Of a stretch of 64,000 nt of DNA, positions 37,917 to 43,480 are shown one piece after another. Under the pieces are notes generated by a model that was not told the DNA's origin, did not search any database, and was given only the letters and a program-made list of their open reading frames with translations. Position numbers and translations under genes: made by a program. The stretch covers positions 1-64,000 of the forward strand of contig JAUHXA010000003.1 of NCBI GenBank assembly GCA_030427245.1, in the 5' to 3' direction. The DNA is from Bacteroidia bacterium (lineage in GTDB: Bacteria > Bacteroidota > Bacteroidia > Chitinophagales > UBA2359). Each line of letters begins with the position of its first letter. The stretch's first letter is position 1.

Positions 37917-37924
37917 TATATTTG
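37917..37924 (+). promoter_or_regulatory. -7 box TATATTTG
   Basis: Exact -7 box 19 nt ahead of the methyltransferase ATG; TTG at 37898-37900 may be the -33 element. Confidence 0.5.
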
Positions 37925-37942
37925 CATTTTGAAACGCTAGCA

Positions 37943-38854
37943 ATGACTCCTTACAAGTTATCTCCCAAACATTTTATCAAACAGGATTCCCAACAAATTG
38001 CATCTTTTTTGAAGGAAAAGAAAGAACAGCAATTCACTGACACACAAACGATTGATTCCTTTGGTAATGAATGGCAACGATTTCACCATTTTGAGGCGGG
38101 GGAATTGGAGCGTATCGGTCAAGAGTATTTTGACATTGTAGACGAAGAAATGTTGAACAAAAATTCAACGGTCTTAGACATTGGTTGTGGAAGTGGTCGG
38201 TGGTCAAAATATGTGAGCAGTCGGGCAGGATTTGTAGAGGCAATAGATCCTAGTGAGGCAGTTTTGGTGGCAACGGAGGTATTGAAGGATGCAGAAAATG
38301 TGCGAGTGACTCAAGCGGGAATTGACGAAATCCCTTTTGAAGACAACAGCTTTGATTTTGCTTTCTGTTTGGGCGTTTTGCACCACCTTCCAAATACCTC
38401 AGAAGCATTGAAGAAATGTGTGGACAAGGTGAAACCCAACGGTTATTTTTTAACCTATCTATACTACAATTTGGACAATCGAGGAGTTTTGTATCGCTTG
38501 GTCTTCAAGACTTCTAATCTTATCCGTCAAATGGTGAGCTGTTTGCCTTTTCGATTGAAGGCAGTGGTTTGTGATGTGTTAGCGGTGGTTTTGTATATGC
38601 CTTTTGTAGTGTTGAGTCGAATTTTATCTAAGATTCCCTTATTGAAGCGAATCGTGCCGAGTTTGCCACTTTCTTATTATTGTGACAAAAGCTTCTACAT
38701 CATCCGCAATGATGCGCTTGACCGCTTTGGTACGCCCTTAGAAAAACGCTATTCCAAAGCTGAAATCCGAGAAATGATGGAGGCTGCAGGATTGACGGAT
38801 ATTCGTTTTTCTGAAAATGCTCCCTTTTGGCATGGAGTGGGAAAAAAGAGGTAG
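37943..38854 (+). CDS. Class I SAM-dependent methyltransferase
   Basis: 303 residues from the ATG at 37943 (a TTG in frame at 37922 lies inside the promoter). The SAM-binding motif VLDIGCGSGRW is at 77-87, followed by an acidic end of strand 2 (AIDPSEA) and motif FDFAFCLGVLHHL. After it comes a hydrophobic stretch near 185-225 (LAVVLYMPFVVLS) that is unusual for a soluble methyltransferase and may bind membrane or a lipid substrate. Substrate unknown. The divergent AraC gene may control it. Confidence 0.88.
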   Translation: MTPYKLSPKHFIKQDSQQIASFLKEKKEQQFTDTQTIDSFGNEWQRFHHFEAGELERIGQEYFDIVDEEMLNKNSTVLDIGCGSGRWSKYVSSRAGFVEAIDPSEAVLVATEVLKDAENVRVTQAGIDEIPFEDNSFDFAFCLGVLHHLPNTSEALKKCVDKVKPNGYFLTYLYYNLDNRGVLYRLVFKTSNLIRQMVSCLPFRLKAVVCDVLAVVLYMPFVVLSRILSKIPLLKRIVPSLPLSYYCDKSFYIIRNDALDRFGTPLEKRYSKAEIREMMEAAGLTDIRFSENAPFWHGVGKKR

Positions 38855-38926: not shown

Positions 38927-38958
38927 TTTGAAAGTGTACTTCAATTTGATTATTTTTG
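38927..38958 (+). promoter_or_regulatory. Promoter: TTTG, 20 nt, TATTTTTG
   Basis: TTTG at 38927-38930 and TATTTTTG at 38951-38958, spacing as in the Bacteroidota consensus, 15 nt before the ATG at 38974. Confidence 0.65.
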
Positions 38959-38973
38959 TAAAAACCTCTTTTT

Positions 38974-39372
38974 ATGCAGAAAATACAAATTCAGACGGAG
39001 TTAGATATGAATACGATATTACAACAACTAAAAATTAGTGAGTTAGAAGCTTTTGCTAGAGAAATATCTATGCATATTACTCAAAGAAAAGCAAAAGATA
39101 AAAAAACAAGAGAGGCGGAATTGCTCCAAAAATTAAATGAAGAATGTGTCTTACCTCATCAGCATTTACAACTTTTCTATTTCTTGATTGAAAAAAGAAG
39201 AAACAAACAACTTTCGAAAAATGAAGCAAAACAACTTGCACAATTAATTCAGGAAGAGGAAATGATGCGCCTTAAAAGAATCAAAATTCTTGGAGAATTG
39301 GCACAATTAAAAAATATACCTATCTCTCAGTTGACCGAACAATTGGGAATTAAACCACCTCAAAGTGTCTGA
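38974..39372 (+). CDS. Small helical protein, partner of the HNH endonuclease
   Basis: 132 residues, almost wholly helical and rich in Leu, Glu, Gln and Lys. The N-terminus is a short beta segment (QKIQIQTELDMNT); then helices with the repeated pattern of Leu spaced by 3-4. The C-terminus (GELAQLKNIPISQLTEQLGI) resembles a small HTH-like end. I recall that proteins with this layout lie directly before an HNH endonuclease gene in many cyanobacteria and some Bacteroidota, but I know of no assigned function. The last 8 nt overlap the HNH gene, and both are behind one good promoter, which suggests a two-gene unit such as a toxin-antitoxin pair or a cargo/partner pair. This is inference. Confidence 0.8.
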   Translation: MQKIQIQTELDMNTILQQLKISELEAFAREISMHITQRKAKDKKTREAELLQKLNEECVLPHQHLQLFYFLIEKRRNKQLSKNEAKQLAQLIQEEEMMRLKRIKILGELAQLKNIPISQLTEQLGIKPPQSV

Positions 39373-39793
39373 ATATATCCCAGTAGATTTACGCGTTTTG
39401 GTTAAAGGTAGAGCAAAAGGAGTTTGTGAGTACTGCTTGGCTTTGAGTGATTACTCTTTTCACCCTTTTGCAATTGATCATATACATCCCACTTCCAAAG
39501 GCGGTAAAACCACGCAAGACAACCTTGCTTTTGCTTGCCAACACTGCAATAATGCCAAATATAATAAGATAACAGGCATAGATCCTCTGAATAATACATT
39601 ATCTACTTTATTTCACCCTCGCCAGCAAAAATGGGAAGACCATTTTATTTGGAACAGTGAAAAAACTATCATTATCGGAATCAGTCCAGTTGGTAGAACA
39701 ACCGTTCAAACAATGAAAATGAATAGAATTGAAGCTATAAATCTTCGCAAAGCATTGTATGAATTTGGTGTTCATCCACCTTTTTTATTTTAA
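39365..39793 (+). CDS. HNH endonuclease
   Basis: 142 residues with a single HNH domain. Zinc-binding cysteines are C21 and C24 (CEYC) and C58 and C61 (CQHC). The catalytic core is IDHIHP with D38-H39, N53 in QDNLAF, and N62 after the second CxxC. The C-terminal 60 residues (NPL...HPRQQKWEDHF, GISPVGRTTVQTMKMNR) are shared with similar stand-alone HNH proteins. The start is a GTG inside the end of the upstream gene (39365), so translation is coupled. It overlaps the end of the convergent DUF5916 gene by 9 nt. No methylase or phage gene is near. Confidence 0.9.
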   Translation: MSEYIPVDLRVLVKGRAKGVCEYCLALSDYSFHPFAIDHIHPTSKGGKTTQDNLAFACQHCNNAKYNKITGIDPLNNTLSTLFHPRQQKWEDHFIWNSEKTIIIGISPVGRTTVQTMKMNRIEAINLRKALYEFGVHPPFLF

Positions 39794-42793: not shown

Positions 42794-43480
42794 ATGGCTA
42801 AAAAACGAAATAAAAAAAAGAAATCCAGTGGAGGTGCTCCCGTAAAATTGACTCCTCAAAAATACATACAGACCAGAGCCAGAAAATTGCCTTTCTACAA
42901 GTGTTTTGTCAATGAGGATTGGGAAGAGGGAGGAATGGCGGTTATCGTTGTATCTCGACAACAAGGGGGAGAAAAATTGGTTGTTGGTCTGTATTTAGTT
43001 GATACCTGGTGCTTGGGATTGAAGGATACACACTTTCAGTTTCGGATGGATAACTATGAGTTTGACAATGAGTTCTTATCCCATATTTATACCACAAGAG
43101 GTTTGAATTTCGAAGAAATAAGTACTGAGTTCGCCCAAAACTTGATTTATGGAGCGATTGAATATGCCGAAGATTTAGGTTTTTCACCTCACAAAGACTT
43201 CAAACTCACCGAATATATTTTAGACCCAGCAGACAGCATTGAAGTAATGGATATAGAGTTTGGCAAAGATGGTGTGCCTCATTACACATCAGGCCCTAAT
43301 GACAATGTAGAAAAAATCATGGCTACTTTGATAAAAAATGTAGGCGAGGGGAATTTCCATTATACAATAGGAAGCCAGGTTTTTGAAGGAGAAGAATACG
43401 ATGACGAAGATGATTATGAATATGAGGAGGAAGAAGATGATGATTTTGCAGAAGACATTGAATACGAAGAAACGAAGTAA
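42794..43480 (+). CDS. Unknown protein with basic N-terminus and acidic tail
   Basis: 228 residues. Begins with a lysine-rich stretch (AKKRNKKKKSSGG), then a domain starting PFYKCFVNEDWEEGGMAVIVVSRQ and GLYLVDTWCLGLKDTHFQF. I recall similar proteins of unknown function in Bacteroidota and other bacteria. The final 30 residues are nearly all Asp, Glu and Tyr. The charge split suggests it binds nucleic acid or a basic partner, but this is only inference. It stands alone on the plus strand. Confidence 0.7.
   Translation: MAKKRNKKKKSSGGAPVKLTPQKYIQTRARKLPFYKCFVNEDWEEGGMAVIVVSRQQGGEKLVVGLYLVDTWCLGLKDTHFQFRMDNYEFDNEFLSHIYTTRGLNFEEISTEFAQNLIYGAIEYAEDLGFSPHKDFKLTEYILDPADSIEVMDIEFGKDGVPHYTSGPNDNVEKIMATLIKNVGEGNFHYTIGSQVFEGEEYDDEDDYEYEEEEDDDFAEDIEYEETK

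Follow-up and report, generated by a model that had tools for sequence, protein, structure and literature searches.

Among described systems, the closest to the HNH protein considered here are the PtuB nucleases of Septu and of the type I-A retrons Ec78/Eco7 and Ec83, which resemble it in full-length fold, HNH core and profile match. PtuB proteins are 205-258 residues long and work with the ATPase PtuA, joined in the retrons by RT/msDNA. PtuAB arrests growth; the PtuAB proteins of retron-Eco7 and of Septu EcB88 deplete or cleave tRNA-Tyr, another Septu has been reported to cut DNA, and the PtuB of retron-Eco7 is not toxic in the absence of PtuA (PMC11555353, PMC13096335). It follows that a PtuB-like HNH protein alone need not be toxic.

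A second likeness is to the type II toxin-antitoxin (TA) modules, such as VapBC/FitAB, CcdAB, HicAB and RelBE, which share with the present pair an overlapping two-gene operon with a small first gene and a nuclease second, RHH-like N-termini (in many partner proteins of the family), a patchy, multi-copy and plasmid-borne occurrence, and solitary antitoxins. PtuB-type HNH proteins are not among the toxins of the 2009 survey of type II modules, from which the word HNH is missing (PMC2701414), and the HNH node of NetFlax is the PtuB partner of PtuA, that is, Septu (PMC10440598). The mycobacterial DNase MSMEG_1275 is also an HNH nuclease, one implicated in cell death, but its regulator, the ArsR-type MSMEG_6762, whose gene lies elsewhere, increases expression of the HNH gene, and there is no overlapping antitoxin gene (PMC9416677).

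The window, a stretch of 64,000 nucleotides from a Bacteroidia bacterium, contains a gene pair on the plus strand that is probably a type-II-like TA module, in which an HNH toxin resembling PtuB is paired with a helical antitoxin of modular build. The partner gene, encoding the proposed antitoxin (38974..39372, ATG start), specifies a protein of 132 residues that belongs to no curated family, and homologues of it lie 5' of nearly every HNH gene of the family. The HNH nuclease gene, encoding the proposed toxin (39365..39793, GTG start), specifies 142 residues with a PtuB-like fold. Both open reading frames are present as the initial annotation had claimed, with an 8-nt overlap (39365..39372, plus strand, +1 frame) that places the GTG inside the end of the partner gene; this start is supported by the relatives, which begin with a similar M-S-x-Y-I/V. 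The description of the first protein as helical also agrees with its model, which has five helices and no strands (mean pLDDT 89).

The near-consensus promoter that had been assigned to the pair was rejected in its sigma-70 form. The sigma-70-type match upstream of the pair (9/12) is at chance level, three such matches being found against 3.7 expected from shuffles, whereas TTTG-N20-TAnnTTTG, the Bacteroidota promoter pattern, is matched exactly at 38927..38958 (plus strand), just 5' of the partner gene. Chance alone would yield about 2.2 such matches per 64 kb on both strands, and about 0.002 in the 120-nt gap on the plus strand. With this probable promoter the leader would be about 10 nt long. 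Upstream of the pair, at a distance of 119 nt, lies a SAM methyltransferase gene of the Methyltransf_11 type (37922-38854), and downstream is a converging gene for a protein of 892 residues; neither resembles a phage or restriction gene, as had been noted. Further along the window, at 42794-43480, is a 228-residue protein with a very acidic C-terminus and no Pfam match.

The assignment of the second protein as HNH is confirmed by Pfam (PF01844, E=9e-14, above cut-off). Its HNH/zinc core (39425..39568, plus strand) comprises Cys21, Cys24, His39, Asn53, Cys58, Cys61, Asn62 and Lys65. In a set of 145 pairs, His39, Asn53 and Asn62 are jointly retained in 140, and Cys21, Cys24, Cys58 and Cys61 are nearly invariant; as read from the sequence, the catalytic residues are intact. 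C-terminal of the core lies a family motif, P-R-x3-W-x2-H-F (39617..39646, plus strand), whose Trp90, His93 and Phe94 are retained in 143, 136 and 142 of the same pairs, respectively. The model of the protein is confident (pLDDT 95.8), and its best full-length fold match is PtuB from Septu and retron Ec78/Eco7 (Z 10.3, 2.8 A, 127 of 142 residues). PtuB-type chains (Z 7.0-10.3 over 126-132 residues) all outrank other HNH proteins, the next of which reaches Z 5.8, and the PADLOC PtuB profiles are matched by each of 57 family members (57/57). The orphan endonuclease Gme HNH (4h9d) shares the HNH core (phmmer E=4e-7), but the match is mostly confined to it (75 residues, Z 5.3) and the PtuB-like C-terminal part is lacking. 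The protein looks like a small nuclease related to PtuB that would cut DNA or RNA.

The same comparison bears on whether the nuclease might act in DNA repair or in a restriction-like role, with the partner as an accessory protein. The HNH core is common to McrA-type restriction enzymes and a methyltransferase gene does lie upstream, but that gene is of the type and at the distance given above, and the match to McrA is confined to the HNH core (79 residues, Z 5.8) whereas that to PtuB spans the full length. No cognate DNA methyltransferase is found beside the HNH gene, and the immediate neighbour in the relatives is the partner rather than a methylase. This reading is therefore regarded as highly improbable.

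Likeness to PtuB does not make the locus a Septu system. The window HNH protein is shorter than PtuB and is accompanied by a small helical protein rather than an ATPase: the PtuB-fold HNH component of Septu is present, while no PtuA-type ATPase is encoded in the window operon. Among the relatives, an ORF with a Walker-A motif is an operon neighbour in just 6 of 79 loci and has no common size, and hence no ATPase is conserved.

The part common to the partner proteins is a helical hairpin at the C-terminus, about 50 residues long (39157..39312, plus strand; model helices 62-76 and 82-113), with the pattern L..L..K....LT..E..EL.... followed by a basic helix bearing a KARA-like motif. Profile comparison connects the short, long and divergent partner forms through this hairpin, although the A3/A5 comparison has some common rows and so slightly overstates the homology, for which the non-circular HMM described below is the better evidence. 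An HMM of the hairpin core tells true partners from other ORFs. The N-termini, by contrast with this common part, vary: they are nearly missing in short forms of 73-85 residues, RHH-like (TITLQVPE.IYQRL...) in many partners, and RelB-like or unclassified elsewhere. Their Pfam matches, weak and below the curated cut-offs, are to HicB, FitA-like RHH, RHH_5, RelB-like and Antitox_RHH, every one of which names an antitoxin or an antitoxin fold. In many relatives the variable N-terminus is likely to be a DNA-binding domain. No DNA-binding fold is visible in the N-terminus of the window partner in its five-helix model, and this protein has no family above the curated cut-off in Pfam or NCBIfam.

Other candidate relationships of the partner were rejected. 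Pfam matches to EDR2_C, PspB, RPC3_helical and DUF7667 were below cut-off and scattered, the best fold match in the PDB was not significant (E 0.8), a lack that carries no weight as evidence, the hairpin resembled YnzC too weakly (E 0.02) for the likeness to be used, and three single PADLOC matches were scattered and yielded no convincing defence family. One partner protein (L088, 4378-4959) carries two tandem hairpin domains, and those of three cyanobacterial genomes (L291, L296 and L321) share the N-terminus EKSYRAIAGDK.S.GKTAGQALDALT, which has no family match.

Relatives of the window HNH gene were searched in 84,980 species genomes, and the best 80 of at least 477 were used. A small partner-type ORF lies directly upstream in 79 of these 80, all from other genomes, which is far above chance. 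The commonest spacings are a 4-nt overlap (16/75 relatives) and the 8-nt overlap of the window (10/75), together 26/75. Adjacent, overlapping genes with the antitoxin first are characteristic of type II TA modules, and the arrangement suggests co-transcription.

The pairing was also approached from the HNH gene, in 18 genomes that were mostly picked for holding a locus and that contain 86 full-length family members. The family boundary is clean: the E values of full-length members lie below about 1e-38, those of generic HNH cores lie above about 1e-14, and partial copies fall in the interval. A recognisable partner accompanies 84 of the 86: 82 were detected by HMM, one is fused to its HNH protein (L303), and one overlaps the HNH gene further than the detection script permitted (L307). 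At L305 the upstream partner has decayed to a remnant, and L314 (G461:C32:20985-23162) is the sole family HNH gene with no partner upstream; one of a different subtype sits downstream. A partner HMM built from the first locus set alone, and hence non-circular, recovers it at 62 of 69 independent loci; the 349 and 118 ORFs that surround HNH genes outside the family or distant from it give no match. With one case in 86, the HNH family is not mostly partnerless, and the coupling proposed in the initial annotation stands; so does its statement that the pair recurs in cyanobacteria and Bacteroidota, the actual span being at least 11 phyla.

Loss of the two genes is asymmetric. Among 33 strong RHH-type partner matches, nine have no HNH gene and a further three lie beside a truncated one, as against the single HNH gene without a partner (9/33 vs 1/86, p=3e-5). 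As in type II TA modules, then, the proposed toxin rarely occurs without the proposed antitoxin, and solitary partners do occur. The window's own genome (G000), whose closest relatives suggest that it is probably a Bacteroidota of the Saprospiraceae type, contains five partner copies and three complete HNH genes. In one of its loci (L326, 1202-1690 on G000:C94) the partner is intact and the HNH gene is cut down to its last 27 residues; in another (L328, G000:C23 near 184172) an intact partner precedes an HNH gene whose core is mutated and whose frame ends at codon 95, followed by what we take to be a TIR-like gene. In the Pyrinomonadaceae locus L303 (G462:C7:192759-194963) the partner and the HNH protein are naturally fused in one open frame, and the fusion has neither the catalytic His nor Asn62 of the HNH core. 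Survival of the partner after loss of the nuclease, the rarity of the reverse, and the dead fusion together form the pattern to be expected of a nuclease that does harm in the absence of its partner. Two solitary partners (L359 and L368) are followed by genes we assume to be DUF433-like, with a presumably DUF5615-like gene next at L359, which together resemble another TA pair; two cases are too few to claim that partners are swapped to other toxins.

The protein distances of partner and HNH co-vary (r=0.65 over 145 pairs, 0/2000 permutations). They do so equally among the 19 paralogues of a single genome (r=0.65, 0/2000), and the effect of species history is therefore removed; inside genome G464 the co-variation is not significant (214/2000). 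Both genes have dN/dS values of 0.05-0.26, indicating purifying selection.

Tight pairing and co-variation would also be found in a two-component nuclease, in which the HNH protein would be active only with the partner as its targeting or activating subunit, as in a mini-Septu or a sequence-directed enzyme. Such a role has a precedent in retron-Eco7, where PtuB requires PtuA for toxicity, and DNA-binding N-termini could direct the HNH protein. However, many partners consist of the hairpin with no space for a separate targeting domain, no conserved ATPase adjoins the pair, and the partners outlast the HNH gene, a pattern of loss that a required activator would not obviously yield. A two-component nuclease is accordingly considered quite unlikely, and the partner less likely to be a targeting partner than an inhibitor. 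It is the TA or inhibitor reading, one of those raised in the initial annotation, that is favoured by the antitoxin-like N-termini of several partners, the survival of partners after HNH loss, the fusion, the co-variation and the patchy multi-copy spread.

For the TA module we infer direct binding, inhibition, toxicity, autoregulation and a target as follows. The HNH protein, with its PtuB fold, would be harmful to its own cell. The partner would be made first, with translation of the HNH gene coupled to it through the overlapping start, and would bind the HNH protein by the conserved hairpin and so hold it inactive; in many relatives its N-terminus may in addition repress the operon by binding DNA. 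Should the partner be lost or removed, whether by stress, plasmid loss or phage takeover, the nuclease would be freed to cut a nucleic acid that the cell cannot do without: DNA, or a tRNA if the analogy with PtuB applies. The chances that DNA is the target appear evenly balanced, and those of tRNA, which rest on the analogy, somewhat lower. A broader proposal, that minimal PtuB-type HNH proteins with re-domained helical antitoxins form a large unnamed TA superfamily, that this was the stock for the HNH effectors of Septu and type I-A retrons, and that the toxin, like some PtuAB, cleaves one particular tRNA, is unlikely to hold as a whole.

The pair looks like a previously undescribed TA module. 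In a full-text literature search, in which subscription papers are thinly covered, no HNH toxin paired with a small antitoxin like the partner came to light, and neither the partner nor the pair was found described in curated families and literature, the coverage of which is incomplete. If the TA reading is true, the pair adds a nuclease class missing from the type II toxins of the surveys compared (the 2009 survey and NetFlax), as a family that spans at least 11 phyla, reaches 19 copies in one genome and has been hidden under the names 'HNH endonuclease' and 'hypothetical protein'. The pair also connects TA modules with the PtuB effectors of Septu and retrons, making the origin of these effectors directly testable, and the partner family may supply natural inhibitors of HNH nucleases.

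The distribution of the pair is patchy and multi-copy, on chromosomes and plasmids. The phyla of the best 80 relatives include Bacteroidota, Cyanobacteriota, Chloroflexota, Planctomycetota, Acidobacteriota, Verrucomicrobiota, Pseudomonadota and Myxococcota, and on the tree of the HNH proteins the phyla are interspersed (20 changes against a minimum of 10), which is in keeping with horizontal transfer, though not proof of it. In the cyanobacterial phylum the pair is present in 15 of 59 sampled genomes and in none of those of about 2 Mb. In the sample of 18 genomes, each has between 1 and 19 full-length copies.

Plasmid carriage, together with the commonness of HNH proteins in phages and introns, might suggest that the HNH protein is a selfish or homing endonuclease and the partner gene a regulatory leader. 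Yet no full-length relative of the HNH protein occurs in 50,697 phage records, the 80 viral-contig loci listed match the HNH core alone with no full-length relative, and we know of no homing nuclease with a conserved small partner; this explanation is scarcely credible. Use of the module in anti-phage defence is a different matter, since it concerns what a TA pair is for and overlaps the TA reading: the pair would sense infection, with the partner as phage sensor. The PADLOC matches, the fold shared with PtuB of Septu and retron Ec78, and the patchy, multi-copy, plasmid-borne occurrence speak for such a use. Against it, there is no demonstrated defence-island pattern, neither neighbour of the window pair is a known defence gene, and the partners match no defence family convincingly, so that this use is possible but somewhat doubtful.

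The pair is carried by 34 plasmid records, of which the named ones are nearly all cyanobacterial, and the plasmid copies inspected are annotated as 'hypothetical protein' and 'HNH endonuclease'. On plasmid pP880101 of Rippkaea orientalis (L459), the partner and HNH genes are separated by an IS4 transposase gene. A genome of candidate division KSB1 (G463) holds 19 full-length copies of the pair, several with partners that differ in their N-termini.
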